64,000 nucleotides of DNA from contig JAEINK010000004.1 of the NCBI GenBank assembly GCA_016342585.1, positions 1-64,000 of the forward strand, written 5' to 3'. This document shows, piece after piece, positions 7,059 to 64,000 of this stretch (the stretch's first letter is position 1; every line of letters starts with the position of its first letter). The notes under the pieces were generated by a model. That model was given only the letters and a program-made list of their open reading frames with translations. It was not told where the DNA came from and searched no databases. The stretch comes from Spirochaetales bacterium. Its GTDB lineage: Bacteria > Spirochaetota > Spirochaetia > UBA9216. The position numbers and the translations under genes were made by a program.

Positions 7059-7060
7059 AA

Positions 7061-8491: not shown

Positions 8492-8492
8492 A

Positions 8493-8520
8493 AAAAAGGA
8501 CAGCTGCGGCTGTCCTTTTT
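8493..8520 (+). terminator. Rho-independent terminator after the diguanylate cyclase
   Basis: GGACAGC (8498-8504) and GCTGTCC (8509-8515) close a UGCG tetraloop; the stem is flanked by an A-run and followed by five T. This is a strong intrinsic terminator and can act in both directions for the convergent BMP gene. Confidence 0.9.
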
Positions 8521-8552
8521 GCGTGGCCCGCAGATGACGGGCTGTTCAAAAA

Positions 8553-9569: not shown

Positions 9570-9675
9570 TCCAATTCTCCTTTGGATTCGGCAAAGATAT
9601 TCTATAATTGTTGACTTAGGATTATTATACATTTATATCAATTAAACGAGTAATCATCTATAGCAGAGGCGATAT

Positions 9676-11190: not shown

Positions 11191-11191
11191 G

Positions 11192-28555: not shown

Positions 28556-29410
28556 ATGGATAAACTCATAATTAAAGATCTGGAAGTCTATGGTTTTCAT
28601 GGTTTTGAACCTGAAGTAGATAAATCCGGAGAAAAATATATAATTTCCGCTGAATTAAGCCTCAATCTTAAGGAGGCGGGGGATACGGATCGGCTTAAAA
28701 ATACGGTGAATCTGGTTAAAATCTGTAGAGAGATAGCCGATCTTTTTACTCATAATCAGCATAAGCTTATCGAGAGTTGCGCAGAAGAGCTGGCTGAATA
28801 TATTCTTTTAACCTATCCTGTTGTTAATCACGTTTCGGTTTCGATTAATAAACCCTGGATCCCCGCAGGAATGACCATAAAGTATGCGGGTATCACCATC
28901 GAACGGAAATGGCATACCGCCTACCTGGGTATTGGTACAAATCTTGGGGAACGGATGACAAATATTCAGTCTGCGATTGATATGATTAATGAATCGAAGT
29001 TTTGCCGCGTAACCAATCAGTCAAAGATATATGAAACCGAACCCTATGGGTACCTCGACCAGGATAAGTTTTTGAATGGGGCTCTGGAAGTAAAAACGCT
29101 CCTGACTCCCCGGAGTTTCCTGCGGTTCCTCCTGGATGTAGAGAAAAAGTTAAAGCGTGAACGGATTATTCACTATGGACCGCGTACCATGGATCTGGAT
29201 GTACTCTTTTATGATCAAATTATGACCTCATTTGAGGAAGCTGTTATTCCTCACCCCAGACTCCATGAACGGATGTTCGTTATGAAGCCCCTTTGTGATA
29301 TCGCCCCCTATTATGTACACCCTATACTGAATGAGAGGTGTTATCGAATTGCTGAAGAGTTAATGAAAACAGAGAACGAACCTGAAGTTTGGAAAGAGGA
29401 TAGGGTCTAA
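28556..29410 (+). CDS. folBK: Bifunctional dihydroneopterin aldolase / HPPK
   Basis: Two consecutive folate-pathway enzymes are fused in 284 aa. Residues 1-118 are FolB-like (YGFHGFEPEVDKSGEKY with the conserved Glu; INKPWIPAG with the catalytic Lys region), converting dihydroneopterin to 6-hydroxymethyl-dihydropterin. Residues 120-284 are FolK (LGIGTNLGERMTNIQSAI, GPRTMDLDVLFYD with the Mg-binding Asp pair, IPHPRLHERMFVM), which pyrophosphorylates it. The stop overlaps the end of the convergent deoR gene by 4 bp. No folP or folE is nearby. Confidence 0.93.
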   Translation: MDKLIIKDLEVYGFHGFEPEVDKSGEKYIISAELSLNLKEAGDTDRLKNTVNLVKICREIADLFTHNQHKLIESCAEELAEYILLTYPVVNHVSVSINKPWIPAGMTIKYAGITIERKWHTAYLGIGTNLGERMTNIQSAIDMINESKFCRVTNQSKIYETEPYGYLDQDKFLNGALEVKTLLTPRSFLRFLLDVEKKLKRERIIHYGPRTMDLDVLFYDQIMTSFEEAVIPHPRLHERMFVMKPLCDIAPYYVHPILNERCYRIAEELMKTENEPEVWKEDRV

Positions 29411-30183
29411 TAATTCTCCCCGGACTTATCGACGATAATGACCTCTATTTTCATTTCTGCAAACCTCTTCGCATAATTCTGTGGAATTTTATCGGTAATA
29501 AAGGTGTGTATCCTGTTTAGTTCTGCCACCGGGTAGATGGAAATCTTGTCAAATTTTGTTTCATCGGCCATCAGGTACCAGCGATGGGCCATGGCTGGTA
29601 TATTTTTAAAAATATATGTACTGATTATCGAATCCACAGTCAGACCCGCCTTCAGATCCAGACCGGATATACTGGTAAACGCCTTGTTAACATAAATATT
29701 TTCCAGCAATGCCTGGGGAGATTCCCAGCTGGAGAAGAGGGTTTGCTCATCGGTGCTCGTTACCTCTCCTCCTATGAGGAATACCCGGGCGGAGTTTTTG
29801 ATCAACTCGGGCAGGGCCGTAATGTTGTTTGTTACGACAGTCAGATTTTTAAAGCCCGCAATTTGGCGGGCAAGAACACAGCATGATCTTCCTGAACCTA
29901 TGAAAATTGAGTCTCCATCGGTAATCTGCTGGCAAGCCGCTCTTGCCAGGGATATAAAAAGGGGATCAGAATATATGTTTTCGTTATCATCGGCAGGTGA
30001 TTCCTTTTCTATCAGTGAGGCACCACCATAAAATCTTATGGCAAATCCCTCACTCTCTATTTTTGCCAGGTATTTTCGTGTCGATACCTTACTGACATTA
30101 AAACGTTTGCTGAGATCATTGACATAGACCTTTTTCTGTTCGCGCAACAGGTTTTTGATCTCTTCTATTCGACTATCTGGCAT
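29407..30183 (-). CDS. DeoR-family transcriptional regulator
   Basis: 258 aa. Residues 1-60 are a DeoR-type helix-turn-helix (RIEEIKNLLREQKKVYVNDL ... VSTRKYLAKIESEG, then RFYGGA). Residues 75-250 form the DeoRC sugar-phosphate sensor (IFIGSGRSCCVLAR, LTVVTNNITALPEL, FLIGGEV, ADETKFDK), so the effector is probably a phosphorylated sugar or polyol. It is divergent from the 30424-36046 operon and lies next to an inverted repeat, so it most likely represses that operon and itself. Confidence 0.9.
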   Translation of the reverse strand: MPDSRIEEIKNLLREQKKVYVNDLSKRFNVSKVSTRKYLAKIESEGFAIRFYGGASLIEKESPADDNENIYSDPLFISLARAACQQITDGDSIFIGSGRSCCVLARQIAGFKNLTVVTNNITALPELIKNSARVFLIGGEVTSTDEQTLFSSWESPQALLENIYVNKAFTSISGLDLKAGLTVDSIISTYIFKNIPAMAHRWYLMADETKFDKISIYPVAELNRIHTFITDKIPQNYAKRFAEMKIEVIIVDKSGENY

Positions 30184-30249: not shown

Positions 30250-30298
30250 CGAAACTAAAACGAAACTTTACAGTTTCGAAAGAAAGGTGTATTATAAT
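30250..30298 (+). promoter_or_regulatory. Putative DeoR operator and promoter of the aldehyde dehydrogenase operon
   Basis: CGAAAC (30261-30266) and GTTTCG (30273-30278) form a perfect 6-6-6 inverted repeat, with another CGAAAC half-site at 30250-30255. DeoR-family operators often contain such GAAAC/GTTTC half-sites. A TATAAT box at 30293-30298 lies just downstream, with no ideal -35. On the other strand TTGACA (30243-30248) may drive deoR. Confidence 0.55.
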
Positions 30299-30423
30299 AC
30301 AGAGCATACGTTTGCGTAGAATTGATCGTAAAGATTATTTAACGTTTAGTTGAAAACAGGCTTGGCCTTTGTGGTCAATCAAATCAGATATGGGTAAAGA
30401 GAACCTGAATTTCGGAGGAAATT

Positions 30424-31836
30424 ATGAGCCAGAATCAGATAGATCCAGCAGTGTATATTTCAGAGCTGATGGAAAGGGCACGAAAAGCGCAGAAAATTGC
30501 AGAAGGATTTTCTCAGGAGAAGGTGGATGAGCTTGCCGCCGCAATCACATGGGAAATTGCAGCTAATAATAAGCTGGGACGGGAATTGGCTGAATTTTCT
30601 TTCGAGGAGTGCGGCCTTGGAGATGTCGATTCAAAGTTTGCAAAAGTCAGCGGCAAATGCCGGGGTGTTTTCTATGATGTCAAGAATGCCAGGAGTGTCG
30701 GCGTAACCGAAGAAATACCTGAAAAAGGGCTTGTTCGTATTTCAAAACCTGTCGGTGTTATTGGCTCTCTTGTTCCCAGTACTCAGGCCGAAATGCATCC
30801 GATTTCACAGGCCATTTTTGTTGTAAAGGCTCGTGATGCTGTTATTTTTTCTCCCCATCCCAGAGGAAAGCTTACAACATTGAAGGCAACCAACCTTTTG
30901 AGGGCCGTTATGAAAAAATATGATGCCCCGGAAGATCTGTTCCTTACTATAGAAGACCCATCTGTTGCCAGGACCAATGAACTGATGAAGCAGTGCGATC
31001 TTGTGATTGCTACCGGCGGTCAGCCTATGGTTAAGGCTGCCTATAGTTCCGGAACCCCTGCTTATGGTGTTGGGGCTGGGAACTCAATGATAGTGATAGA
31101 TAAAACCGGTGATCTTGCCGATGCCGCCGTGAAAATCAAGGCAAGTAAAACCTTTGATCTGGCCGCCGGCTGTTCCTGTGATAATAGTGTGATTATAGAT
31201 GCATCCGTTTATGACGATATGCTGGCCGAGTTTAAGAAAGTGGGTGCTCATCTGGTGAATCAGGAAGAGAAAGCGAAGTTACAGAAGGCTATCTGGCCTG
31301 AGTGGCCTGGCAATCATGTGATTAATCGAGATATTGTCGCTTCACCCATCGCCAATATTGCGGCTATCGCCGGTATCGCTGTTCCTGAAGGAACTTCTCT
31401 TCTTCTGGTGGAAGAGGATAAGACGGGAGAAGCATCACCTTTCAGCGGTGAAAAGATGAGCCTTGTGACAACGGTGTATAAGAGTCACTCCATAGATGAG
31501 GCTATCCGTATAACCAATGAGAACCATGCCTATTCCGGTTCGGGACACTCCTGCGGTATATACTCCAATACCCCTGAGAATGTTGAAAAACTGGCATTGG
31601 GAACCTATACAACCCGTGTTGTTGTTAATCAGGCCCAGGCGGCCACGAATGGTGGAAGCTGGACCAGCGGGATGCCCTTTACTCACTCCCTGGGTTGCGG
31701 TACATGGGGAGGAAACATCTGTTCTGAAAATATTGAACTGAAACATTATCTGAACAATACCTGGGTCATACGTGAAATTCCCAGTTTCAAACCAACCGAT
31801 GAGGAGTTGTTTTCTGGATTTACACCCCGGAGTTAA
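30424..31836 (+). CDS. CoA-acylating aldehyde dehydrogenase (sulfoacetaldehyde/acetaldehyde type)
   Basis: 470 aa, ALDH superfamily. Expected reaction: aldehyde + CoA + NAD(P)+ to acyl-CoA. The acylating group is indicated by IGSLVPSTQAEMHPIS in place of the hydrolytic ALDH entry motif, by GVGAGNSMIVIDKTGD, and by the catalytic Cys in KTFDLAAGCSCDNSVI, a pattern close to sulfoacetaldehyde dehydrogenase (SauS) and EutE/AdhE domains. The C-terminal half has AYSGSGHSCGIYSN. The start has GGAGG upstream. It is first in a five-gene operon with a CoA-transferase, an HMG-CoA-lyase-like enzyme and a split transketolase, so the aldehyde is probably produced by one of those partners. The true substrate is unknown. 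Confidence 0.85.
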   Translation: MSQNQIDPAVYISELMERARKAQKIAEGFSQEKVDELAAAITWEIAANNKLGRELAEFSFEECGLGDVDSKFAKVSGKCRGVFYDVKNARSVGVTEEIPEKGLVRISKPVGVIGSLVPSTQAEMHPISQAIFVVKARDAVIFSPHPRGKLTTLKATNLLRAVMKKYDAPEDLFLTIEDPSVARTNELMKQCDLVIATGGQPMVKAAYSSGTPAYGVGAGNSMIVIDKTGDLADAAVKIKASKTFDLAAGCSCDNSVIIDASVYDDMLAEFKKVGAHLVNQEEKAKLQKAIWPEWPGNHVINRDIVASPIANIAAIAGIAVPEGTSLLLVEEDKTGEASPFSGEKMSLVTTVYKSHSIDEAIRITNENHAYSGSGHSCGIYSNTPENVEKLALGTYTTRVVVNQAQAATNGGSWTSGMPFTHSLGCGTWGGNICSENIELKHYLNNTWVIREIPSFKPTDEELFSGFTPRS

Positions 31837-31842
31837 TCAGTA

Positions 31843-33327
31843 ATGAATAATCGAATAAAAAAAAGCAGCCTGCTGAAATGTATGGCTACTGCTGAACAGG
31901 CTGCTTCCTTCATACAGGATGGTATGACTGTAGCCATGAGTGGCTACTCCATGGCAGGATACCCGAAGGCTGTTGTCGAAGCCCTGGTGGATCGGAAACA
32001 GGGAGGGGAGGATCTCTCCATCAATTTAATTACCGGGGCGAATGTCCCCTGGCTTGATGAGAAGCTTGGTCATGAACAGATGATAGGTCGGCGGGCACCC
32101 ATGTGTGCCAGCCGGGTTGTCGCCGGCCAGGCTAATAATGGATCCATGAGGTATGTGGAGCAGCAGATGTGCAAGATGCCCCGGCTGTTAAGAAGAAACA
32201 GCTTTGGGAAGATCGATATTGCTGTCGTAGAGGCGCTTGGTTTCAATGAAAATGGGGATCTTATTCCCACTAATGCCATTGGTTTTATGAATTATCTCAT
32301 GGATGCGGCGGAGCATATTATTGTTGAAATAAATACCGCTCAACCAGAGAAGTTGATGGCGCTTCATGATGTCTATATCCCTCAGGCTCCTCCTGACACT
32401 CAGCCAATCCCATTAACCTCGGTTAATCAGCGGATCGGGTCGGGAGGAATTCCTGTACATGAAGATAAGATCCTTTTTATAGTCGAAACCAGTATTCCTG
32501 AACAGGTCGGCGCCCTTGCCTCAGGAAATGAAGTGACAAAAAAAATAGCAGCCCATCTTTTTGACTTTCTTGAAGTCGAGTACCAGGCCACAGGAGGGAT
32601 TCTTCCTCCAATCCAGACCGGTTTCGGTGGGATTGCCAATTCAATAGCCGATGCTTTTCAGAAGTCAACCTTTCATGACCTTCAGTTTTTCTGTGGTGGC
32701 ATAACAGAGACGATTTTGGAATTGATGGTTTCCGGAAAGGCGACGGCTCTGTCGACGGGTGGGATTGGAATGTCACCCCGGGTGGTGGAGATCCTTGAAA
32801 CCATGCCGAATATACAGGATCACCTTGTGATCAGGAATGGTGATATTACCAACAATAGTGAAATCATTGGCAGACTTGGCCTTATGGCCCTGAATACCGG
32901 AATTGAGATAGATGTTTATGGGAATGTGAATTCAAGTCATATCTCAGGAAGCCGGGTCGTGAACGGTATAGGCGGCGGAGCAAACTTCGCGCAAAATGCC
33001 GGACTGTCTGTCATTTTAATTCCCTCCATTGCCAAGGGTGGTGCCATATCAAGTATTGTTCCCATGGTCTCCCATCAGGATATTTGTGAACATGATGTGG
33101 ATATTGTTGTAACCGAAAACGGTTTGGCCGATTTACGGGGCCTTGATGATGGTGAACGAGCCGATGCCCTTATAGCCAATTGTGCATCCCAGGTCTATCG
33201 TGAACAATTATTAGATTATATCCGTCTGGCTCGGGAAAAATGCGGGGGACACCATCCTCAGCTGCCAGAAGAGGCTTTTAGATGGTACAAAAGGCTCAGG
33301 GAAGATAAAACCATGCTGGAGAAATAA
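31843..33327 (+). CDS. Acetyl-CoA hydrolase/CoA-transferase family protein
   Basis: 494 aa, family I CoA-transferase of the Cat1/4-hydroxybutyrate type, expected to move CoA between an acyl-CoA and a carboxylate. Signatures are DGMTVAMSGYSMAGYPK near the N-terminus, the oxyanion/CoA loop GFGGIANSIADAF, and the C-terminal IDVYGNVNSSHISG ... GIGGGANFAQNA ... KGGAISSIVPMVSH and VTENGLADLRGL blocks. After the glycine loop, the usual YTEVxQD with the catalytic Glu is replaced by GGITETILELM, which keeps a T-E pair but is shorter and recalls citrate lyase alpha subunit. Stop and start are 6 nt from the dehydrogenase, so it likely recovers energy from the acyl-CoA made there (inference). Confidence 0.85.
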   Translation: MNNRIKKSSLLKCMATAEQAASFIQDGMTVAMSGYSMAGYPKAVVEALVDRKQGGEDLSINLITGANVPWLDEKLGHEQMIGRRAPMCASRVVAGQANNGSMRYVEQQMCKMPRLLRRNSFGKIDIAVVEALGFNENGDLIPTNAIGFMNYLMDAAEHIIVEINTAQPEKLMALHDVYIPQAPPDTQPIPLTSVNQRIGSGGIPVHEDKILFIVETSIPEQVGALASGNEVTKKIAAHLFDFLEVEYQATGGILPPIQTGFGGIANSIADAFQKSTFHDLQFFCGGITETILELMVSGKATALSTGGIGMSPRVVEILETMPNIQDHLVIRNGDITNNSEIIGRLGLMALNTGIEIDVYGNVNSSHISGSRVVNGIGGGANFAQNAGLSVILIPSIAKGGAISSIVPMVSHQDICEHDVDIVVTENGLADLRGLDDGERADALIANCASQVYREQLLDYIRLAREKCGGHHPQLPEEAFRWYKRLREDKTMLEK

Positions 33328-33329
33328 AC

Positions 33330-34220
33330 ATGAAGAAAATAGAAATTTACGAGGTGGGACCTCGTGACGGGTTTCAGAATGTAGCAGATTATATCCCGCT
33401 TGAGACAAAAAAGAAGATCGTTGAAGGTCTACTTGATTCGGGAATCAGACATATGCAGATCACATCCTTTGTGAGTCCCAAGGCCATTCCACAGATGAAG
33501 GACGCCCGGGAGTTAACCGGATATTTTGTTGACAAATTTCCGGATGCCGATTTTCTGGCTCTGGTCCCCAACCTGCGTGGTGCTCAGGGTGCCTGGGAGG
33601 CCGGACTTAAATCGGTCTCCTATGTTGTCAGTCTGGGGGAGAGTCATAATCAGGCTAATATTCGAAGGACCCATCAGGAATCCTATGATGAGCTATTGAA
33701 AATAAGAGAAGCATATCCTGACCTTGATATCTGTCTCGATCTGGCCACCACTTTCGGCTGTCCTTTTGAGGGAAAAAAGGGGGCCGGGGATGTTGTTCCC
33801 TTTATTAAACCCTATAGAGAGGCAGGAATAAAAACGGTAAACCTTTGCGATACGATTGGTGTGGCAAACCCGGCCCAGGTCCGATCCATCATAGAGGCGG
33901 TCAGAACCGAATATCCTGACCTGGAACTGCAGGTACATATTCATGATACCCGTAATATGGGAATGGTTAATACACTTGCTGCCATTGAGCTTGGTATTGT
34001 CAAGGTTCAGTCGACCCTGGGCGGTTTGGGCGGATGTCCATTTGCTCCGGGTGCATCGGGAAACCTGGCAACGGAAGATTTAGCCTTCATGCTTGCCGAG
34101 ATGGGGTATGAAACAGGAGTCGATACTCCAAAGATAGTTGAATTGGCAAAATACCAGGCGGAAGCAATACCGGCCGGCCAGTTCAGCGGGCATCTTTTTA
34201 AAATACAGGCCAGAGATTAG
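33330..34220 (+). CDS. HMG-CoA lyase-like enzyme (DRE-TIM metallolyase)
   Basis: 296 aa, full length for the family. Visible motifs are EVGPRDGFQN (catalytic Arg/Asp), LCDTIGVANPAQV, metal-binding HIHDTRNMG and the catalytic-Cys loop GLGGCPFAPGASGN, which matches true HMG-CoA lyases rather than aldolases. It would reversibly cleave a 3-hydroxy-acyl-CoA, releasing acetyl-CoA or another acyl-CoA fragment. No leucine or terpenoid degradation genes are nearby. Its place 2 nt after a CoA-transferase and just before a split transketolase suggests a role in an unrecognised carbohydrate or branched hydroxy-acid pathway. Confidence 0.88.
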   Translation: MKKIEIYEVGPRDGFQNVADYIPLETKKKIVEGLLDSGIRHMQITSFVSPKAIPQMKDARELTGYFVDKFPDADFLALVPNLRGAQGAWEAGLKSVSYVVSLGESHNQANIRRTHQESYDELLKIREAYPDLDICLDLATTFGCPFEGKKGAGDVVPFIKPYREAGIKTVNLCDTIGVANPAQVRSIIEAVRTEYPDLELQVHIHDTRNMGMVNTLAAIELGIVKVQSTLGGLGGCPFAPGASGNLATEDLAFMLAEMGYETGVDTPKIVELAKYQAEAIPAGQFSGHLFKIQARD

Positions 34221-34229
34221 GAGGAAGAA

Positions 34230-35066
34230 ATGGAAAATAAGAACACGGTTGAATTTATTCAGGAGAAGGCCGCTGTCATGCGCCGGGATGTCATTGAGAT
34301 GGGGTATGTTGCAGGCGGGCGGGGAGCTCACTTCGGGCCCGCACTATCGAGTATTGAAATAGTAGCGAGTCTCTTTTTCAAGGTGATGAATCACGATCCC
34401 AAGGAGCCGACCATGCCGGAAAGAGACAGGTTCGTCCAGAGTAAGGGGCATGCTTGTCTTTCCTACTATTCCGCACTGATCGAGAGTGGATATATCGATA
34501 AAGAGTTGATGAGCACTTTTAAGGGTGACGAAAGCTTTTTATCCGGGCATCCCAGCCGGAATATGGAGCATGGAATAGAAATTTCCTCCGGAAGTCTTGG
34601 AAATGGTTTTGCGATTGCCTGCGGTATGGCCAAAGCGGCTAAAATCAAGAATGAAGATCATTATGTCTATTGCCTCGTTGGCGATGGTGAATGTAATGAA
34701 GGCATTATCTGGGAAGCAGCCATGAACGGGGCTAAAAACAAACTGGACAATCTGGTTGCTATTGTTGACCGGAATGGAGTTCAGCTGGCAGGAAAAACCT
34801 CTGATATCATGGATGTGGATCTTGTGGCCCTCTGGAAAGCTGTTGGCTGGGAAGTTGAAGTTGTCGAAGATGGGAACGACTTACTTTTAGTTATTGAAGC
34901 TCTCGAGAAAATGAAAAACTCAAAGAGTGGAAAACCGCATATGATAATAGCTAATACCACAAAGGGTAAAGGAATTTCCTTCATGGAGGGCAGTCTTGAC
35001 TGGCACGCCAGGGCGATGGATAAAGAACAATACGATCAGGCTGTTTCAGAACTTGAGAACGCGTAA
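34230..35066 (+). CDS. Transketolase, N-terminal (TPP-binding) subunit
   Basis: 278 aa, equivalent to the first third of fused transketolase. Motifs are GGRGAHFGPALSSIEIVASL, SKGHACLSYYSAL and the thiamine-diphosphate/metal motif GDGECNEGIIWEAAM ... VAIVDRNGVQL. It binds TPP together with the following C-terminal subunit and transfers two-carbon ketol groups between sugars. Split transketolases are common in anaerobes; this dedicated copy inside a regulated operon is probably not the housekeeping enzyme. Ribosome-binding site AGGAGGAAG precedes the ATG. Confidence 0.92.
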   Translation: MENKNTVEFIQEKAAVMRRDVIEMGYVAGGRGAHFGPALSSIEIVASLFFKVMNHDPKEPTMPERDRFVQSKGHACLSYYSALIESGYIDKELMSTFKGDESFLSGHPSRNMEHGIEISSGSLGNGFAIACGMAKAAKIKNEDHYVYCLVGDGECNEGIIWEAAMNGAKNKLDNLVAIVDRNGVQLAGKTSDIMDVDLVALWKAVGWEVEVVEDGNDLLLVIEALEKMKNSKSGKPHMIIANTTKGKGISFMEGSLDWHARAMDKEQYDQAVSELENA

Positions 35067-35080
35067 AGGGGAGGCGAAAA

Positions 35081-36046
35081 ATGAGTAATACACCAATAGA
35101 TAAATTACAGGAGTGGTCAAAACAGGGCCATCGTACCGTACTGGGAGATTCACTGGTCATGCTGGCCGCCGAAAGGCCTGAAATGTGCACTGTAACTGCC
35201 GATTTAACACCAACAGCGCGTTTAACCAAGTTCAGGGATACCTATCCTGACAGGTTCTTCGATGTTGGGATAGCTGAACAGAACCTTATCAATTTTTCAG
35301 CCGGTCTGGCTGTTGATGGTTTAATCCCCTATGCCGTGGGGCTGGCAGCCATCGTTCCTATGAGACCCGCAGAACAGATGAGAATGGCTCTGGGGTATAT
35401 GAACTTGAATGCAAAGGTTGTCTGTATCGAAGCCGGTGTGCGGTTCGGCCCCCTGGGGAATACTCACTATGCGATGGATGATATCGCCGTTGTACGAGCG
35501 ATCCCGAACTTTACCGTTATTTCACCTTCGGATCCTCTTCAGATTTATAAGACCATCTTTGCTATTGCCGATCATGATGGTCCTGTTTATGTTCGTCTTA
35601 CTGGTGGCCCGGGATTTCCTGTTATGTATCCCGAGGATTTTGACTTTCAAATAGGAAAGGCAATCGAGTATAAAGAGGGGAGTGAAGTTGCCTTTATTTC
35701 AACCGGCTCCATGCTTGGTGCTGCCGTTGAAGCTGCGGAAACCCTTGAAAGTAAGGGGATTTCCACCCGGGTCGTTGATATGCATACCATCAAACCCCTT
35801 GATACGGATATGCTGGATAAAGTTTTTGCTGAAAATAAACTGATTGTTACTGTCGAGGAACACTCTTCAATCGGTGGACTCGGTGGTGCTGTTGCCGAAT
35901 ATAAGGCTGGTATTGCCGGTGCCCCCAGGCAGATTATGGCCAGCCTGGGAGATGCCTTTAAAAAAATAGGTGACTACAAATTCAAGCTGAAACAGAGTGG
36001 TTTAACAGCTTCTGACCTGGTCGCTTTGGCCGAGGCGAATTTATAG
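35081..36046 (+). CDS. Transketolase, C-terminal subunit
   Basis: 321 aa, carrying the Pyr and C-terminal transketolase domains. FDVGIAEQNLINFSAGLA holds the conserved Glu that activates TPP; FGPLGNTHYAMDDIA and YVRLTGGPGFPV follow, and the C-terminal domain has VDMHTIKPLDTDML and VEEHSSIGGLGGAVAEY. It lies 14 nt after the N-terminal subunit. The same split architecture is used by the sulfoquinovose transketolase (SqwG/SqwH) of the sulfo-TK pathway, but motif content alone cannot tell sugar- from sulfosugar-specific forms. Confidence 0.92.
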   Translation: MSNTPIDKLQEWSKQGHRTVLGDSLVMLAAERPEMCTVTADLTPTARLTKFRDTYPDRFFDVGIAEQNLINFSAGLAVDGLIPYAVGLAAIVPMRPAEQMRMALGYMNLNAKVVCIEAGVRFGPLGNTHYAMDDIAVVRAIPNFTVISPSDPLQIYKTIFAIADHDGPVYVRLTGGPGFPVMYPEDFDFQIGKAIEYKEGSEVAFISTGSMLGAAVEAAETLESKGISTRVVDMHTIKPLDTDMLDKVFAENKLIVTVEEHSSIGGLGGAVAEYKAGIAGAPRQIMASLGDAFKKIGDYKFKLKQSGLTASDLVALAEANL

Positions 36047-36076
36047 GTATACGGCTTAATATTCCCAAACGAGGTT

Positions 36077-36111
36077 GCCCGGGTAAACAGAATCCATGGA
36101 TTCTGTCGGGC
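36077..36111 (+). terminator. Hairpin after the transketolase operon, with a 20-bp perfect palindrome
   Basis: A perfect palindrome covers 36087-36106 (ACAGAATCCATGGATTCTGT) and is enclosed by GCCCG (36077-36081) and CGGGC (36107-36111). The RNA would form a long stem with a small bulge 31 nt after the transketolase stop. There is no long T-run, so it may be a terminator or an RNA 3'-end stabiliser. Confidence 0.6.
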
Positions 36112-37332: not shown

Positions 37333-38265
37333 ATGAGTCTTAAATTTGCTATCGCGCCATGTTCCTGGGGAATTGAAGATCCGGAAAACATAGATAATCC
37401 CCCCTGGAAGACGGTACTTGACGAAGCAGGTATGTCCGGCTTTATCGGTGTCGAGTTAGGTCCATATGGATATTTACCTGTAAATCCTTCTTTTTTAAGG
37501 GATTCCCTGGAATCAAAACAGCTTAATTTAATTGCTGGAACGCTTTATGATAACCTGACCGGAACTGCAGATTTAAATAATCTTAAGGAAAAAACCCGAA
37601 ATATCTGCAGGCTTCTTTCAGAAGTGCTGGAAAGCAAACAGAGAGGGTTTATAGTGATTATTGATCGTGTTAATGAAATGCGTAATAACACAGCGGGTCA
37701 TCCTGAATTGGCCCGGCGGATGAATACTGCAGACTGGAAGTTGATGATGGAAAATATCAGGATTGTTTCAAAGATCGCTGCTGAGGAATTCGGGATAAGG
37801 CCTGTTGTTCATCCCCATGCTGGTGGGTTTATTGAGTTCAATGATGAAACTGAAAAATTTCTCAACGATATACCGGGAAATGTGGCGGGATTATGTCTTG
37901 ATACAGGTCATCTGTACTATGCCGGGGATGATCCTGCACAAAGTCTGGTAAAATATTCATCAAGAGTAGATTATGTCCACTTTAAAGATATCAATAAGGA
38001 TGTCTATAAGAATGCGCTTGAAGAGAAGATGGGGTTCTTTGATGCCTGCAAGCTTGGTGTCATGTGTTCGATAGGACGAGGATGCGTTGATTACCGCTCT
38101 GTGTTTTCCGCTCTTGATAGGATTGATTATTCAGGATGGGTGACAATTGAGCAGGAACGAGACCCGAAAGATTACAGGGGTACATTGGATGATATTAAAA
38201 TGAGTTATGATTACCTTGTAAAAACGGTTGAATCACGGCCTGGCGGGGAGCACCGGTTCCTATGA
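37333..38265 (+). CDS. TIM-barrel sugar isomerase/dehydratase, inosose dehydratase (IolE)-like
   Basis: 310 aa of the xylose-isomerase-like TIM-barrel (AP_endonuc_2) family. IAPCSWGIEDPENIDN and GFIGVELGPYGYLP resemble the start of IolE-type inosose dehydratases. The metal ligands appear as PVVHPHAGG, LCLDTGHLYYAG, VDYVHFKDI and IEQERDP. IolE converts scyllo-inosose to diketo-deoxyinositol, the substrate of IolD; no other IolE candidate is in the window, and it shares the LacI operator with the iolBCJD operon. The sequence is diverged from classical IolE, so a related dehydratase or epimerase on another inosose isomer is possible. Confidence 0.7.
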   Translation: MSLKFAIAPCSWGIEDPENIDNPPWKTVLDEAGMSGFIGVELGPYGYLPVNPSFLRDSLESKQLNLIAGTLYDNLTGTADLNNLKEKTRNICRLLSEVLESKQRGFIVIIDRVNEMRNNTAGHPELARRMNTADWKLMMENIRIVSKIAAEEFGIRPVVHPHAGGFIEFNDETEKFLNDIPGNVAGLCLDTGHLYYAGDDPAQSLVKYSSRVDYVHFKDINKDVYKNALEEKMGFFDACKLGVMCSIGRGCVDYRSVFSALDRIDYSGWVTIEQERDPKDYRGTLDDIKMSYDYLVKTVESRPGGEHRFL

Positions 38266-38331: not shown

Positions 38332-39342
38332 CTATCTTTTTTTACCTTTCAAATATGCTTCATGCATGAGTATGCAATACTTCAGAGCCGCAGTACCATC
38401 TTCAGCAGTTATATCGGGTTTGCGGCCTTCGATGATACAGTTTGTAAAATCTTTAATCTCATTGAAGAAAGCTTTTTCCCAGCGTTCTCTGAAATCATGC
38501 TGACACTCTTCCTGGTAACCTTGTTCAGTGAATTGTCCGACATAATTAGTTCTGGGTATAGTATTGACGGTTAAAGTGCCTTTTGTTCCCACTATTTCCG
38601 TTGCTACATGTGAGCAGGTATGAGTTCTTCCTACATGAATATAAGCAGAAGCCCCATTTGCAAAACGTGAGAGAGAAAATCCGTTATCATAATCATTATA
38701 TTTATCTAATTCTTCACAAACATATGCATCTCCGGTTGCCAGACACTCTTCCGGCTCGTCTTCAAGGAACCACCTGGCCAAGTCAGCATCATGGCTTCCC
38801 ATTTCAATAAACCATGGCATGTAAATTCCACGTTTTACTCTTTCAAGATGGGCGTCAAGTACTGATGATGGATCAAGACTGATACCTCTGAAATGGATAG
38901 GCCGTCCTATAGCACCTTTTTTAATTTTATCCTTTGCAGCCATATATGAAGGATCAAAACGCCGCATGAACCCCAGAGTAAAAAATCTATTCTCGTTTGA
39001 AGCTACAGCTTCTTCGATTATCCTGCAATCTTCCAATGTTTTTGCCAATGGTTTCTCACAGAAAATATGTTTTTCAGCACTGCAGGCTTTCACAACATGC
39101 TCTCTGTGCATATCCGATCCGGTAGCTACTATCACAGCCTCTATTTCAGGGTTTCTAAGCATTTTGTCATAGTCCGTGTACCCGTTCGCAACGTCGAATT
39201 CTTCCTGTAATTTACGGATTTTGGTTTCATTTCTTGCACAAATAGCTACAACTTCTGCACCAGGAAGGCTGTTCTGTAAATTTTCAAGGTGGGTTCTCCC
39301 CATTTGACCTGTTCCGACTATGCCATATCGAATTTTTCTCAA
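38332..39342 (-). CDS. Gfo/Idh/MocA-family dehydrogenase (inositol 2-dehydrogenase-like)
   Basis: 336 aa. Rossmann motif YGIVGTGQMGRTHLENL, the catalytic EKPLA segment (HIFCEKPLAKT), and the second catalytic region MGSHDADLARWFL. The family contains myo- and scyllo-inositol dehydrogenases that use NAD(P). I choose the TTG at 39342, which has AAAGGAGG 10 nt upstream and directly precedes the Rossmann strand; the longer frame from 39444 runs through a repeat element and adds 34 meaningless residues. It faces the IolE-like gene and lies downstream of the GntR regulator gene on the same strand. Whether it oxidises myo-, chiro- or scyllo-inositol cannot be told. Confidence 0.83.
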   Translation of the reverse strand: MRKIRYGIVGTGQMGRTHLENLQNSLPGAEVVAICARNETKIRKLQEEFDVANGYTDYDKMLRNPEIEAVIVATGSDMHREHVVKACSAEKHIFCEKPLAKTLEDCRIIEEAVASNENRFFTLGFMRRFDPSYMAAKDKIKKGAIGRPIHFRGISLDPSSVLDAHLERVKRGIYMPWFIEMGSHDADLARWFLEDEPEECLATGDAYVCEELDKYNDYDNGFSLSRFANGASAYIHVGRTHTCSHVATEIVGTKGTLTVNTIPRTNYVGQFTEQGYQEECQHDFRERWEKAFFNEIKDFTNCIIEGRKPDITAEDGTAALKYCILMHEAYLKGKKR

Positions 39343-39369
39343 AATAATGATTCCTCCTTTATTCGAGCC

Positions 39370-39464
39370 GGGTTTAATACCCCGCGGCTTTCTGCGTAAT
39401 GATTTCTTTGATGTAAGAAAAATGCTTAACCAAAGTAAATCCATGCCTGCGGGGTATTAAACCC
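39370..39464. repeat. REP-like inverted repeat (two outward copies of a 16-bp motif)
   Basis: GGGTTTAATACCCCGC (39370-39385) and its exact complement (39449-39464) flank 63 bp in the gap between the GntR and Gfo/Idh/MocA genes. The left copy continues as GGCTTTCTGCG, like the hairpin at 43391-43424. The arrangement resembles bacterial REP/BIME elements. It also places a long stem in the mRNA leading into the dehydrogenase gene. Confidence 0.65.
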
Positions 39465-40345: not shown

Positions 40346-40382
40346 CTATCATCAGATGGTACAGAAGTTTTAAGGAGTGAAT

Positions 40383-41495
40383 ATGGCAGTTGTAGACAAA
40401 AAATGGTTAACCACTGATTATCCGCATATAATTTTCGAGGATAATGCGGTTGGTCAGTTGAAGAAAAGAATTTTTGATGCACCGATGGATGAAATAGAGA
40501 AGATTCTTGAAGATTATGGAGTAGGGGCTGAGTCAGAACTTGGCAAAGCAGGATGTTACATTCAAAACACCCCTCGCAAAGAAGCCATCGAAAAACGAAA
40601 GAAAAATGATATTGTCCTGGTTCCAATCGGATGTTCTGAAAATCATGGTGATCATGCTAATGTTGGCCTGGATACCTTTATGGTTACCCAGATAATTGAG
40701 GCTGTAAGAAGAAAAACTGCCAAACAGGGTAGAGAAGTAAACCTGGCTTTTTCACCGATCAATTACGGTGGACACCCCTACCACCATATGGGCATGCCCG
40801 GAACAGTAATCATTCCCCCTGAAACAGTACGGGAAATGCTTATTTATACCATGCTCGGACTGTGGAATGATGGTTATCGCAAAATTATTCTTTTTAATAA
40901 CCATGGGCATCTGTGGACTCTGGTGGATGCGATTCAGGAATTCATGAAGAGATTCAGTCTTCCCGCAATTGTTCAGGTTGTGGACTGGCATAGAGCGGTA
41001 AGAGAATTTTTTATGCCTATCAACCGTGAGGATTCCCTTACTACTAACTTTATTCATGCAGATGAGGCTGAGACGTCAGTAGGCCTATTGATGTTCAAGG
41101 ATATGATCAATATGGATTATGTCAGAGATGCCGAGGGTGAAACTTTTTTGCCTGATGGACACTTTGACCTTTCCGTTGATCCTTACAGACGTCCTCACAG
41201 ATGGTCTGAGGGAGAAGGACATTATGCGATCGAACGATTTGTCACTCCCGAAGGAGTCGTCGGATCCCCAAGCAAGGCTACTGCAGAAAAAGCAAAACGC
41301 CCTATCGCAGCTATCTGTGAATATACAACCATGATGGTTAATGATATTCTTGATGCATTTCCAGCGGGTACAGTTCCAGACAAAGTTTCCTTAAGAACCG
41401 ATGAGGAACTTGCTCCTTTCCTGAAAGAACCCTGGACTGAAGGGTGGAAGTCCGTTTATGAACTTCCCCATATCGGACCTTTTCATAAAGGTTAA
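40383..41495 (+). CDS. iolN: 3-dehydro-scyllo-inosose hydrolase (creatininase family)
   Basis: 370 aa from the ATG at 40383 (AAGGAG upstream). Creatininase-fold metal ligands are visible: VLVPIGCSENHGDHANVGLDTFM, NYGGHPYHHMGMPGTV, ILFNNHGHLWTL and ADEAETSVGL. In the Thermotoga maritima inositol pathway IolN opens diketo-inositol to 5-keto-L-gluconate. Assignment rests on the fold plus immediate neighbours iolO and iolM, which encode the enzymes after and before it. It is longer than creatinine amidohydrolases (about 260 aa), with an N-terminal extension of about 70 residues. It is first in a five-gene operon under the GntR-type promoter. Confidence 0.82.
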   Translation: MAVVDKKWLTTDYPHIIFEDNAVGQLKKRIFDAPMDEIEKILEDYGVGAESELGKAGCYIQNTPRKEAIEKRKKNDIVLVPIGCSENHGDHANVGLDTFMVTQIIEAVRRKTAKQGREVNLAFSPINYGGHPYHHMGMPGTVIIPPETVREMLIYTMLGLWNDGYRKIILFNNHGHLWTLVDAIQEFMKRFSLPAIVQVVDWHRAVREFFMPINREDSLTTNFIHADEAETSVGLLMFKDMINMDYVRDAEGETFLPDGHFDLSVDPYRRPHRWSEGEGHYAIERFVTPEGVVGSPSKATAEKAKRPIAAICEYTTMMVNDILDAFPAGTVPDKVSLRTDEELAPFLKEPWTEGWKSVYELPHIGPFHKG

Positions 41496-41498
41496 TGT

Positions 41499-42326: not shown

Positions 42327-42328
42327 GG

Positions 42329-43387: not shown

Positions 43388-43390
43388 ACA

Positions 43391-43424
43391 ATTAATAACC
43401 CCGCGGTTATCTGCGGGGATAATT
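43391..43424 (+). repeat. REP-like hairpin between iolM and the downstream dehydrogenase gene
   Basis: CCCCGC (43399-43404) pairs with GCGGGG (43413-43418) in ATTAATAACCCCGCGG...; the left half resembles the 39370 element. It is followed by a weak second stem (AGGGA/TCCCT near 43435-43475). It lies in the 127-nt gap inside the operon and could give partial termination or protect the upstream mRNA. Confidence 0.5.
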
Positions 43425-43514
43425 TCAGGGAAAGTCAGGGATATAGTATGGTCCCTACCTTTCTTTACATCTGTAAACATTTCCTGTTTACATTTCTTGC
43501 ATTAAGGTGGTTTT

Positions 43515-44534: not shown

Positions 44535-44557
44535 ATTTTGGAGAGAAAATTCAATTT

Positions 44558-60219: not shown

Positions 60220-60253
60220 CTTTAGTGTGTTTAATTATTTACAAGGAGTAATT

Positions 60254-61060
60254 ATGGGTCTGGAAGCAAAAAATAAAATTAAAAACAGGGAAGGGTTTAA
60301 ACCCGGCTATACCGAAATCGTCTCCAAGCAAGCAAATCCGGAAATGTTGATGACTTTCGGTGTTTTAAAAATATTGAAGGGTGAAAGTTTTTCGAATGAT
60401 GAAAGCCTTGAAAGAATATTTTTGCTGTTGCATGGGACAGTAGAGCTATCCTGGGATGGTAATTCGATAAAGATTGAACGAGGAACACTCTTTGATGATG
60501 ATCCAAGGACTCTTCACCTTCCCAAAAGTGTGAAGGTCGATATAAAATGTCTTTCTGATGAAGCAGAGTTTTCGGTTCATAAAACAGAAAATGATAAAGT
60601 TTTTCCTTCAAAACTTTATGGTTCAGAGGAGTTGGTAAAAGAGGTTCGGGGAAAAGGTACTATGAACGAAACCGGTACCCGCCTGGTTCGAACGATTATT
60701 GATTACTCAATCAATTCCGATGCAAACCTCATGATTGGAGAAGATGTGCAGTACCCTGGTAGATGGGCAGGCTTTCCTTCACATTCCCATAACCAGCCTG
60801 AAATTTATTTTTACAGATTTTTACCAGAAAACGGTTTTGGACTCCTTAAGCTTGGGGATGAGGGTGTTTGTCTTGAGCAGGATGATACCTGTATTATTCC
60901 AATGAATCTTGTACATCCTCAGGTTGCGGCACCGGGTTATGCCATGTATTTTCTGTGGGTTATTCGACATTTGGATGGAAATCCATATTTGGGTCCTGAT
61001 TTTGAAGAGCAGCATTTATGGGCCGAGAAACCTGATGCTAAAATCTGGCCGGATAAATAG
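60254..61060 (+). CDS. iolB: 5-deoxy-glucuronate isomerase
   Basis: 268 aa from the ATG at 60254 (AAGGAG 5 nt upstream); the longer frame adds nine residues. A bicupin: the second cupin carries WAGFPSHSHNQPEIYFYRFLPENGFGLL with metal His/His/Glu, and MNLVHPQVAAPGYAMYFLWVIRH with the last His, both diagnostic of IolB. It converts 5-deoxy-D-glucuronate, the IolD product, to 5-keto-2-deoxy-D-gluconate. It is first in the iolBCJD operon under LacI control. Confidence 0.93.
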   Translation: MGLEAKNKIKNREGFKPGYTEIVSKQANPEMLMTFGVLKILKGESFSNDESLERIFLLLHGTVELSWDGNSIKIERGTLFDDDPRTLHLPKSVKVDIKCLSDEAEFSVHKTENDKVFPSKLYGSEELVKEVRGKGTMNETGTRLVRTIIDYSINSDANLMIGEDVQYPGRWAGFPSHSHNQPEIYFYRFLPENGFGLLKLGDEGVCLEQDDTCIIPMNLVHPQVAAPGYAMYFLWVIRHLDGNPYLGPDFEEQHLWAEKPDAKIWPDK

Positions 61061-61074
61061 GAGTCCAATCAGGA

Positions 61075-62067
61075 ATGTTAGAATTTGGCAGGAATAAGAA
61101 AATTGACATTGTTGCTCTTGGTCGTGCCGGTATCGATTTGAACGCTGTCGAGATGAATGTCCCGATGGAAGATAATATGATCTTCCGGAAGACTGTGGGC
61201 GGTTCTCCTGCCAACATTGCCGTAGCCTGTTCACGATATGATCTGAATGTGGGGTTTATCGGCAGGGTCTCTGATGACCAGCATGGGAAATATATCAGGA
61301 AATACTTTAAATCAAAAGGGATAAATACTGATAATCTGATCACCGATAAAGACGGCGGAATGAACGGACTGGCTTTCACCGAGATTAAATCTTCTATGGA
61401 TAGCAGTTATATTCTTCATCGGGATAATGTATCCGACCTGAATTTAAGTATTGAAGACATCGACGAGGAGTATATAAAAAATACAAAATTCCTTGTGATT
61501 TCCGGTACAGCATTATCAAAAAGTCCTTCACGCGAAGCTGTCTTTGCTGCTCTTGAATATGCGGAAAAACATGATACAAGGGTTATGCTCGATATTGATT
61601 ACAGGGACTACACCTGGAAATCGGCTGAGGCCAGTGGAATCTATCTCTCACTGGCTGCGGAAAAGTGTGATGTGATTATTGGTACCCGTGAAGAATTTGA
61701 TATGCTGGAGAAATTTTCTATTCCTGGTAATCATGATGATTCTGTGACGGCAAATAGATGGTTTGACTATAAAGGGAAGGTCATCATTGTAAAACATGGA
61801 AAAAAAGGGTCTTTTGCCTATACCAGTGATGGCAAGGTTATAGAGGGCGTTGTTTTCCCTGTGACACCACTTAAAACCATGGGGGCTGGCGACTCATATG
61901 CCGGTGGCGTCATTTACGGTTTACTCTCCGGTAAGGCCGTTGCCGAGGCTATGGAGATTGGTGCCGGTGCGGCAGCCATTGTTGTACAAAAACCCGACTG
62001 TTCAGAATCCATGCCGACCTTAGAAGAAATCCAGGATTTTATATCCAACTACAGGGCGGGAAAGTAG
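61075..62067 (+). CDS. iolC: 5-dehydro-2-deoxygluconokinase
   Basis: 330 aa PfkB-family kinase. ALGRAGIDLNAVE and VGGSPANIAVACSRY are the IolC-type substrate region; MGAGDSYAGGVIYGLLSG contains the anion-hole Gly and catalytic Asp. It phosphorylates 5-keto-2-deoxygluconate with ATP, giving the substrate of the aldolase IolJ encoded next. It starts 14 nt after iolB and ends 4 nt before iolJ. General PfkB sugar kinases are an alternative, but the operon fixes the call. Confidence 0.93.
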   Translation: MLEFGRNKKIDIVALGRAGIDLNAVEMNVPMEDNMIFRKTVGGSPANIAVACSRYDLNVGFIGRVSDDQHGKYIRKYFKSKGINTDNLITDKDGGMNGLAFTEIKSSMDSSYILHRDNVSDLNLSIEDIDEEYIKNTKFLVISGTALSKSPSREAVFAALEYAEKHDTRVMLDIDYRDYTWKSAEASGIYLSLAAEKCDVIIGTREEFDMLEKFSIPGNHDDSVTANRWFDYKGKVIIVKHGKKGSFAYTSDGKVIEGVVFPVTPLKTMGAGDSYAGGVIYGLLSGKAVAEAMEIGAGAAAIVVQKPDCSESMPTLEEIQDFISNYRAGK

Positions 62068-62071
62068 GCAA

Positions 62072-62914
62072 ATGCTTGTTAATATGACGAAATATGTAAA
62101 AACCGCCTCACAGTCGGATACTATTGTACCTGCTTTCAATGTTTTTGGTTATGAGGATGCTTTTGCCGTGATAAGGGCGGCCGAGAAATTTCATGCTCCG
62201 GCAATACTAATGTCGAACTCTGATTCGGTGGAACATATGGATCTGAAACATAGTGCGGCTCTTTACAGATCCCTTGGAGAAGCAACAGATATACCCGTAT
62301 CTATTCATTTAGACCATGCGAAAACGTTTGAGTTGATTTTACGTGGAGTGGAAGCAGGCTATACATCTGTCATGTATGATGGTTCGGCACTTTCTCTTGA
62401 GGAAAATATTGAGAATACTCAGGAAGTGATCGAACTGGCTGAAAAACATAATATTTCCGTTGAAGCTGAACTTGGTTCAGTACCTTATATCGACCGGAAT
62501 GAAGAGGTTAAATCAATACTTACTTCTCCTGAAGAGGCCGGTATTTTTACCAGAAAAGCTCGAGTGAATGGTCTTGCCGTTGCGGTAGGTTCGCTTCACA
62601 GGATGCAAACTCGGAGGGCAAAGCTTGATTTTAACAGAATAGTAGAGATTGAACATAATACAGATGTTCCCCTGGTGATACACGGGTTTTCCGGGATCAT
62701 TGCCGGGGACATAAAAAGACTGTGTTCAACAACAGTCGGTAAGGTGAATATCGGTACGGAGCTGAGGCTTACGTTTGGAAATTCACTAAAATCAGAAATT
62801 GAGCTCAATCCTGATGAGTTTGACAGGGTTAAGCTTTTTAAGAAACCAATGAAAGCGGTTCAAGATGCCGTGGAAGAAAAATACCGGCTCCTGGGCTGGG
62901 AAGAAAAAGAATAA
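62072..62914 (+). CDS. iolJ: Class II aldolase, 6-phospho-5-dehydro-2-deoxy-D-gluconate aldolase
   Basis: 280 aa, class II fructose-bisphosphate-aldolase family. PAFNVFGYEDAFAVIRAAE, the zinc ligands in SIHLDHAKTFE and VEAELGSV, VIHGFSGI and NIGTELRLTF are present. In an iolBC-D setting this is IolJ, which splits the phosphorylated deoxyketo-gluconate to dihydroxyacetone phosphate and malonic semialdehyde. Gene order alone separates it from FbaA or tagatose-bisphosphate aldolase. The 11-mer GAAAACGTTTG inside the gene (62320-62330) repeats the operator at 60209-60219. Confidence 0.9.
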   Translation: MLVNMTKYVKTASQSDTIVPAFNVFGYEDAFAVIRAAEKFHAPAILMSNSDSVEHMDLKHSAALYRSLGEATDIPVSIHLDHAKTFELILRGVEAGYTSVMYDGSALSLEENIENTQEVIELAEKHNISVEAELGSVPYIDRNEEVKSILTSPEEAGIFTRKARVNGLAVAVGSLHRMQTRRAKLDFNRIVEIEHNTDVPLVIHGFSGIIAGDIKRLCSTTVGKVNIGTELRLTFGNSLKSEIELNPDEFDRVKLFKKPMKAVQDAVEEKYRLLGWEEKE

Positions 62915-62923
62915 GGAGAGAGT

Positions 62924-64000
62924 ATGAAAACTATAAAACTGACTATGGCTCAGGCCCTGGTAAAATTCCTTGATAACCAGTATCTGAACTTTGACGGAGA
63001 AGAGATTAAATTTGTAGAAGGATTTATTGGAATTTTTGGTCATGGAATTGTTGTTGGTTTAGGTGAGGCTCTTGAGGACAAAAGCCACTCCCTGAAATTC
63101 ATACAGGGAAAGAGTGAGCAGGGGATGGCCCATATCGCAATGGGATATGCCAAACAGAAAAAGAGACGACAAATAATGGCTGTTACAAGTTCTATTGGTC
63201 CCGGTGCCCTCAATATGGTAACCGCCGCTGGAACCGCCACGGCAAACAGAATCCCTGTACTTTTTCTACCCGCGGATTCATACGGAAACAGACAGCCTGA
63301 TCCTGTTTTACAGCAGATCGAGCAGAGTACCGATCACAATATAACCGCAAATGATGCTTTTAAGCCGGTAAGTAAATACTGGGACAGGGTCGTCAGACCA
63401 GAACAGTTGATGACTGCCATGATCAACGCCATGAGAATCCTGACTAATCCTGCAGAAACGGGTGCTGTCACAGTTTGTTTGCCCCAGGATGTGCAGGGAG
63501 AGGCCTATGATTATCCTGTGGAATTCTTTGAGAAGCGGGTTCATTTCAACCAGAGAAGATGTCTTGATGATGCGGCTTTGAAAAGGTTTGCTGATAAAAT
63601 TTCTGCAAAGAAAAAACCATTTATCATTTGTGGTGGTGGAGTAAAGTACTCGGAAGCAGGTGAGGAGCTGAAGGCGTTCTGTTCTGAATTCAATATTCCT
63701 TTTGGTGAAACTCAGGCCGGTAAGAGTACTCTGCCCGCAGATAATGAATACAATTTAGGCGGTGCCGGTGTAACCGGAACTTTGGCTGCCAATAAGATTG
63801 CTAAGGATGCTGATGTGATTATCGGTATCGGAACAAGACTCAACGATTTCTGTACATCTTCCAAATCGGCCTACAACGCCGATGCCGAAATGTTAACGAT
63901 TAATATCAACGACATGGATGCCTATAAGATGAATGCAGATCCCTATTTCGGTGATGCTAAACTCTCTTTAAAGCAGCTCTCGGCAGAGCTTAAAAAGAGA
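62924..64000 (+). CDS. iolD: 3D-(3,5/4)-trihydroxycyclohexane-1,2-dione hydrolase (3' end cut by window)
   Basis: The ATG at 62924, with AAGGAGAG upstream and 9 nt after iolJ, opens a frame that is uninterrupted for 359 codons to the window edge; the full enzyme is about 610-640 aa. It is a thiamine-diphosphate acetolactate-synthase-like protein: [29 protein letters not shown], the TPP-activating Glu near [34 protein letters not shown] and [12 protein letters not shown] are IolD-specific. It hydrolytically opens the C6 ring to 5-deoxy-glucuronate, feeding IolB. Confidence 0.93.

Follow-up and report, generated by a model that had tools for sequence, protein, structure and literature searches.

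We describe five adjacent genes in a 64,000-nucleotide stretch of DNA (the window) from a Spirochaetales bacterium. The cluster very probably belongs to myo-inositol catabolism. In soils, sediments and guts, inositol derived from phytate is a major substrate of plant origin. During its breakdown, IolD yields 5-deoxy-D-glucuronate and IolB then yields 2-deoxy-5-keto-D-gluconate (DKG). Degradation beyond DKG is thought to proceed by phosphorylation and aldol cleavage, with the IolM-IolN-IolO route as the alternative. The cluster encodes a split transketolase that, we suggest, probably acts on DKG itself. We further propose a complete scheme, in which the genes form a non-phosphorylating transketolase branch of inositol catabolism. 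Our estimate is that this has slightly less than an even chance of being correct.

The window lies on contig 2 of a 5.0 Mb genome in 127 contigs (phylum Spirochaetota). Open reading frames were assigned to families by Pfam and NCBIfam profile searches. The original prediction, made from the DNA alone, had described five same-strand genes, with gaps of 2-14 nt, divergent from a DeoR regulator. All were found in place (30424-36046; gaps of 6, 2, 9, and 14 nt) and each of the five families was confirmed. The features are as follows.

29407..30183, minus strand: DeoR-family regulator (DeoRC 114 bits, HTH_DeoR 42 bits), 240 bp upstream of the cluster
30424..31836, plus strand: coenzyme A (CoA)-acylating aldehyde dehydrogenase (ALDH), SauS/SucD-like (NF047625 SauS 476 bits)
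31843..33327, plus strand: AarC/Cat1-fold class I CoA-transferase homologue (CoAT; ScpC 489 bits)
32695..32697, plus strand: Gly285 codon of CoAT, site of the catalytic Glu in AarC (by alignment to AarC)
33330..34220, plus strand: 3-hydroxy-3-methylglutaryl (HMG)-CoA-lyase-family enzyme (HMGL), a DRE-TIM metallolyase (NF004283 263.5 bits)
34230..35066, plus strand: split transketolase N-terminal subunit (TKN), binding thiamine diphosphate (ThDP) (Transketolase_N 168 bits)
35081..36046, plus strand: split transketolase C-terminal subunit (TKC; Transket_pyr/Transketolase_C)

We infer every substrate and product of the scheme from the observed gene content, conserved order, inositol linkage and residue changes. 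Briefly, IolG, IolE, IolD, and IolB would turn myo-inositol into DKG. Note that DKG, HOCH2-CO-CHOH-CHOH-CH2-COO-, is a D-threo ketose when read from the CH2OH end, and a carboxylate isostere of xylulose-5-phosphate. The split transketolase would transfer carbons 5 and 6 to a sugar phosphate. What remains would be (R)-3-hydroxy-4-oxobutanoate, or malate semialdehyde, in which a carboxylate replaces the phosphate of D-glyceraldehyde-3-phosphate. ALDH would oxidise this aldehyde to (R)-1-malyl-CoA. Since HMGL chemistry requires a hydroxyl beta to the thioester, CoA must then move to C4. We suggest that CoAT relocates it, plausibly via a cyclic anhydride formed with the substrate's own carboxylate. 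Finally, HMGL would split 4-malyl-CoA into acetyl-CoA and glyoxylate, giving every one of the five genes a role. Our search of the literature on inositol catabolism, which did not extend to paywalled papers, found no transketolase, transaldolase, malate-racemase or HMG-CoA-lyase step.

Conservation and inositol context

Scanning about 85,000 species genomes with ALDH identified 20 close relatives, with 70-87% identity, after which values dropped abruptly to 52% or less. All cluster proteins were then compared with the resulting loci using tblastn. The order ALDH-CoAT-HMGL-TKN-TKC was found at all 20 loci (L041-L060), as far as contigs reach; 14 are complete or nearly so and the remainder end at contig edges. 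These loci are 62-88% identical to the window's cluster. Their hosts are spirochaetes, Acidimicrobiia and Clostridia/Eubacteriales metagenome-assembled genomes (MAGs), and one MAG labelled Betaproteobacteria. Gene order is thus conserved across spirochaetes and clostridia, as had been thought worth checking, and is not unique to the window's genome. The same order recurring across phyla indicates a dedicated module. Pairwise distance matrices for the five proteins correlate (r = 0.80-0.92), and none of 2000 permutations reached the observed value. We conclude that the block was inherited, or transferred, as one unit. The 20 relatives' loci, together with the window's genome, provide the 21 cluster genomes considered below.

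At locus L053, a divergent DeoR gene precedes genes for IolC, an IolB-like protein, IolD, IolE, a TIM-barrel protein and an IolG-like dehydrogenase. The five cluster genes then follow. Scores for IolD (882 bits, cut-off 715), IolE (388, cut-off 290), and IolC (361, cut-off 300) pass, while the IolB-like protein (68, cut-off 205) falls below. Linkage of the cluster to iolD and other iol genes is also seen at L043, L044, L052, L056, and L059 and, by contig continuation, iol linkage is seen in genomes G401, G402, and G407. In Clostridia, iol genes and the cluster share one operon. DeoR orthologues (56-75% identical) adjoin the cluster in spirochaetes and head an operon of iol and cluster genes at L053, L056, L059, and L165. 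The DeoR-family protein is probably an IolR-like regulator of inositol genes.

IolD scored above cut-off in 19 of the 21 cluster genomes, with a fragment in one more. This compares with 5 of 120 Spirochaetota genomes, the window's among them. IolB was detected in 20 (above cut-off in six) and IolC was above cut-off in 15, and below in six. MMSDH (IolA) passed its cut-off in only four genomes, all Acidimicrobiia-type, and in none of the spirochaete or clostridial ones. IolJ-like aldolase and DUF2090 were scored at E 1e-40. The former was found in seven genomes, the latter in one other, and neither in 13. One of the 13 (G406) has a weaker IolJ-like match adjoining its IolC. Hence, we count 12 genomes in which neither type of aldolase was found. 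These include the five clostridial and six Acidimicrobiia-type members without exception.

Enzymes of the proposed route

The best PDB match of TKN is the N-component of split transketolase 6yak (214 bits) and that of TKC is 6yaj (205 bits). TKN keeps the ThDP motif VGDGECNEG and His34. In TKC, Glu117, Arg121, and Leu125 occupy the sites that we take, from the known sequence of E. coli TktA, to be His461, Gly465, and Asp469. All three are invariant in cluster orthologues. Note that the L051 row of this alignment is another transketolase from that contig, rather than a cluster orthologue. Along with changes in HMGL, described below, these residues indicate that specificity has probably moved from that of canonical enzymes.

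A second set of genes bears on the transketolase step. A further IolD locus is present in four clostridial cluster genomes (G405, G411, G408, and G407). It encodes IolD, IolE, malic enzyme, type II GAPDH, a divergent PGK and a split transketolase in G405 and G411, and is interrupted by the contig end in G408. In a class-wide search, the type II GAPDH was found in 5 of 148 genomes. Its neighbours again included split transketolase, PGK and iol genes, with a LarA-family protein at L175, L177, L178, and L179. At L176, GAPDH, PGK, malic enzyme and iol genes were present, with no transketolase in view; at L177, iolD was not in view. Malate racemases are established within the LarA superfamily (PMC11770544). 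The two LarA proteins tested scored 383 and 402 bits with malate racemase Mar2, compared to 225 and 279 with lactate racemase. In this operon, GAPDH and PGK would make D-malate and ATP from malate semialdehyde, the racemase would produce L-malate, and malic enzyme would generate pyruvate. A Mar2-like LarA fits, since an R product is expected from DKG; the D configuration was deduced from DKG stereochemistry before the LarA gene was recognised. By analogy, the second operon supports, but does not prove, the transketolase step in the five-gene cluster. Overall, these inositol-linked modules of Clostridia (L154, L163, and L175-L179) appear to mimic lower glycolysis with carboxylate substrates.

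Among curated models, ALDH comes closest to SauS, although the score of 476 bits is below the cut-off of 600. The EutE/PduP-type model, NF011927, scored 189 bits. On this basis, we rejected a EutE/PduP grouping, which, according to the original prediction, would have argued against a dedicated pathway. Cys250 aligns with the catalytic Cys, and the best PDB match is acetylating succinate-semialdehyde dehydrogenase 8cei (294 bits). Phylogenetically, cluster ALDHs form their own long-stemmed clade, with 100/100 support. Closest to it are the ALDHs of L113/L118, which accompany HMGL genes, and those of L111/L112/L098, which accompany CitE-like lyases. ALDHs from L110/L114 (sulfoglycolytic transketolase, or sulfo-TK, type neighbours), L062/L067 (transaldolase and MmdA-like decarboxylase) and L061 are placed elsewhere. 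Because the tree program flagged long branches, we are more confident of the cluster clade than of the exact order in which these groups branch. That sister ALDHs also adjoin CoA-ester lyases, HMGL at L113/L118 and CitE-like at L111/L112, supports our scheme.

Two of these neighbourhoods are described here for completeness. L111 (4517-11404) and L112 (4498-11392) combine a split transketolase, TRAP importer, CitE-like lyase and SauS-like ALDH, which together probably degrade an imported sugar acid in an analogous way. L113 (2465-15889) has a row of genes for DhaK-like, DhaL-like, and RpiB-like proteins, a Tct importer, ALDH, a TIM barrel, HMGL, a thiamine pyrophosphate enzyme and an AroE-like protein. 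A glyoxylate carboligase identity for the thiamine pyrophosphate enzyme beside HMGL was not supported; its best matches are acetolactate synthase.

With SauS as the closest model, and a split transketolase common to both, a sulfosugar (sulfo-TK) pathway must be considered. The original prediction had raised this, with sulfoacetaldehyde or glycolaldehyde as possible aldehydes, while observing that the cluster has no sulfosugar isomerase. The latter is correct. Furthermore, no sulfosugar or tetrose isomerase, sulfonate exporter or sulfoacetate-CoA ligase was found beside the cluster, in the window or at L041-L060. The cluster is instead surrounded by inositol genes, of which the prediction made no use. 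ALDHs with sulfosugar-type neighbours (L110, L114) form a distant clade, and the cluster ALDHs stand apart from those of L110, L114, and L115, which we presume to be SqwD-type from their neighbouring genes. On gene context and the tree, we reject the sulfosugar route, to which we attach next to no probability. The sulfoacetaldehyde and glycolaldehyde readings are not supported. What survives is a dedicated, apparently undescribed route, with transketolase releasing an unusual aldehyde and ALDH making an acyl-CoA.

Could ALDH mainly turn malonate semialdehyde, the product of IolJ, into malonyl-CoA? It would then replace IolA, with the other four genes catalysing a side reaction. Malonate semialdehyde is isosteric with the substrate of SauS. 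The spirochaete and clostridial cluster genomes lack IolA, as noted above, and the cluster's ALDH is the sole SauS-like one in the window's genome. Moreover, ALDHs of the L061 and L062/L067 types probably catalyse this reaction in inositol operons. However, the cluster clade is separate from both types. The compound may not form at all in the 12 cluster genomes without IolJ and DUF2090. Transketolase, CoAT and HMGL would also have no role, despite being inherited as one block. We consider this explanation unlikely, albeit worth keeping in mind.

The L061 operon (3-11353), from [Clostridium] ultunense, is arranged IolC-IolJ-IolD-IolE-IolG-IolB-ALDH, the last likely replacing IolA. At L067 (8878-13001) and L062 (272-3574), the order is transaldolase, SauS-like ALDH and MmdA-like carboxyltransferase (746 bits), with IolB and IolD adjoining in L067. 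This is a possible transaldolase variant, in which DKG and glyceraldehyde-3-phosphate would yield fructose-6-phosphate and malonate semialdehyde, then malonyl-CoA and acetyl-CoA. L052 (16459-19046) has an additional SauS-like ALDH as well as a transaldolase beside the five-gene cluster, suggesting transketolase and transaldolase branches in one genome.

For CoAT, homology to class I CoA-transferases holds (2g39, 374 bits; AarC, 313 bits) and the ScpC score, 489 bits, is narrowly below the cut-off of 500. We fixed the catalytic site as AarC residue 294 by comparing PDB entries 4eu3 (wild type, GYSEVIQD) and 4eub (Ala variant, GYSAVIQD). AarC Glu294 aligns with Gly285 in the window's protein, and all 17 cluster CoATs have Gly here. 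Homologues at L186-L188 (Pelosinus propionicus, [Clostridium] ultunense) have Glu. No invariant acidic substitute was found near Gly285 among cluster CoATs; at +4, most have Glu but L045 has Lys. Hence, an earlier statement that motifs are intact in each gene fails for CoAT. Because the nucleophilic Glu is absent, recovery of CoA or energy, the role first suggested for this enzyme, is unlikely to proceed in the usual way. Instead, we propose that CoAT shifts CoA intramolecularly, from 1-malyl-CoA to 4-malyl-CoA. The conserved loss of Glu294 fits, since attack by the substrate's second carboxylate on its own thioester would make Glu unnecessary. Functional precedent for intramolecular C1-C4 transfer is provided by Mct, from another family (PMC9196870, PMC9813914).

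It is also conceivable that 1-malyl-CoA is formed but CoAT is a thioesterase, or a Glu-independent intermolecular transferase, with HMGL using another CoA ester. Family I CoA-transferase folds do include hydrolases, and the NCBIfam matches are below curated cut-offs. Conversely, HMGL is directly downstream, beginning 2 nt after CoAT in the window, and the spacing of cluster genes is tight in nearly all loci. HMGL also needs a 3-hydroxyacyl-CoA, obtainable from malate semialdehyde only by a CoA shift. We regard this possibility as rather improbable.

HMGL scores above the NF004283 cut-off of 246 (PRK05692 subfamily) and matches PDB entries 6nds and 1ydo. Across 16 orthologues, R12, D13, H203, H205, C236, and N245 are retained, the metal ligands and catalytic Cys included. 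All 16 have Gln43 where canonical HMGLs carry Glu, which argues for a substrate other than HMG-CoA. No relative of the cluster HMGL was found among the viral contigs searched.

A related ALDH and HMGL pair in genome G378 (L040, 11-8749) suggested a different pathway; identity to the proteins encoded in the window is 43% for ALDH and 42-43% for HMGL. The pair accompanies genes for a cupin, a transaldolase-family protein, an apiosidase-like protein (PF13204, 304 bits) and a sugar ABC importer. This is a candidate CoA-dependent apiose pathway. For a branched sugar of this kind, ALDH would produce apionyl-CoA and HMGL would release glycolyl-CoA and dihydroxyacetone, chemistry that is ideal for HMGL. 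However, the L040 HMGL retains the canonical Glu, and no glycosidase or apiose gene was found near the five-gene clusters examined. With no CoAT or transketolase in view at L040, and its ALDH grouping with the L062/L067 type, we set the apiose route aside as very unlikely for the five-gene cluster.

Neighbouring inositol genes and evidence against the scheme

The window contains further inositol genes. Those listed first are between 36166 and 46063.

37333-38265: IolE-like (174 bits), preceded by a LacI gene
38332-39444, minus strand: IolG-like (270 bits), followed by a GntR gene
40377-41495: IolN (equivalog, 296 bits, above cut-off), neighbouring an IolO-like gene
42329-43387: IolM-like (211 bits), with a second IolG-like gene beyond
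44558-46063: UxaE (525 bits)
60227..64000, plus strand: iolB-iolC-iolJ-like-iolD operon, on the same contig as the cluster

The last operon extends beyond the window's end to about 69 kb, where it includes genes for IolG and IolE, among others (L149). Hence, Thermotoga-type IolN, IolO-like, IolM-like, and UxaE genes (40377-46063) coexist with a canonical iolBCJD operon at 60.2 kb. Two or more routes for inositol are present in the window's genome, where contig 106 carries another IolD locus.

Genes for IolN, IolO-like, IolM-like, and UxaE proteins adjoin the cluster both in the window and at L045. The transketolase donor could, then, be 5-keto-L-gluconate, tagaturonate or fructuronate, hexulosonates of the IolM-IolN-IolO route, and the aldehyde tartrate semialdehyde. 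ALDH would make tartryl-CoA, from which HMGL would generate glycolyl-CoA and glyoxylate directly, leaving CoAT to handle glycolyl-CoA. Such cleavage requires no prior CoA shift, and at L111, L112, and L118 no CoA-transferase accompanies the transketolase, ALDH, CoA-ester lyase and TRAP importer. However, IolN is beside the window and L045 clusters only; across phyla, the partner is IolD with IolB, consistent with the DKG route. The malate racemase-like protein and malic enzyme of the second clostridial operon suit malate over tartrate, and CoAT lacking its catalytic Glu is poorly suited to recovering CoA from glycolyl-CoA. We judge a hexulosonate donor unlikely.

Several observations count against the scheme based on DKG and malyl-CoA. 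In canonical transketolases, E. coli Asp469 reads the 2-hydroxyl of the acceptor, and this residue is Leu in cluster TKC. The product of IolC could not be used as a transketolase donor because it is phosphorylated at the hydroxyl next to the ketone. Even so, IolC is in the cluster operon at L053 and immediately upstream at L057, which is unexplained. The L057 genome (G409) had no IolD or IolB in the profile search. Seven spirochaetes carry the IolJ-like aldolase, including the window's own, which also has IolC. Absences of iol genes are weak evidence, since most cluster genomes are incomplete MAGs. No dedicated glyoxylate-using genes were identified, and our literature search yielded no HMGL-family malyl-CoA lyase. 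Finally, the G378 gene pair, beside an apiosidase-like gene, indicates that ALDH and HMGL can serve other substrates.

Comparison with known systems

If correct, our scheme would explain genomes with IolD and IolB yet no known aldolase, and would save the ATP used by IolC. It would also involve three new activities: a DKG transketolase, a Glu-less class I intramolecular malyl-CoA C1-C4 transferase, and an HMGL-family malyl-CoA lyase.

The cluster HMGL and HMG-CoA lyase share a fold, metal ligands and the catalytic Cys. They differ in the Glu to Gln change near the active site, the inositol surroundings, and the lack of adjoining leucine-degradation genes. The proposed reaction, from 4-malyl-CoA to acetyl-CoA and glyoxylate, is that of malyl-CoA lyase (PMC3832036). 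However, that enzyme is of the CitE-like superfamily and uses the (S) substrate, whereas the cluster enzyme is a DRE-TIM protein, with an expected (R) substrate. Similarly, the C1 to C4 shift of CoA proposed for CoAT, on a C4 dicarboxylate backbone, matches that of the intramolecular mesaconyl-CoA transferase Mct. While Mct is a family III enzyme, CoAT has the class I AarC/Cat1 fold without the catalytic Glu.

Canonical myo-inositol catabolism (IolG-IolE-IolD-IolB-IolC-IolJ-IolA), known from B. subtilis and as an anaerobic variant in Anaerostipes (PMC8355322), shares IolG, IolE, IolD, IolB, and DKG with our scheme. The two would then diverge, with transketolase acting on unphosphorylated DKG in place of IolC and IolJ. 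The products would be acetyl-CoA, glyoxylate and a C2 unit entering the pentose pathway, rather than dihydroxyacetone phosphate and malonate semialdehyde. The IolC-DUF2090 fused aldolase variant (PMC9007349) likewise replaces IolJ, but still uses a phosphorylated intermediate; among the 21 cluster genomes, DUF2090 was detected in just one.

In the sulfo-TK pathway (SqwGH with SqwD and SqwKL; PMC11659671), a split transketolase acts on a non-phosphorylated, anionic-tailed ketose, followed by an acylating ALDH. The same logic would apply to our cluster, with a carboxylate for the sulfonate, no tetrose isomerase, the addition of CoAT and HMGL, and an ALDH of a different clade. The resemblance may extend further. 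We tentatively suggest, with less confidence than for the five-gene scheme itself, that parallel routes from DKG mirror those of sulfoglycolysis. These would be transketolase with ALDH, Glu-less CoAT and HMGL; transketolase with GAPDH, PGK, racemase and malic enzyme; and transaldolase with malonyl-CoA formation and decarboxylation.

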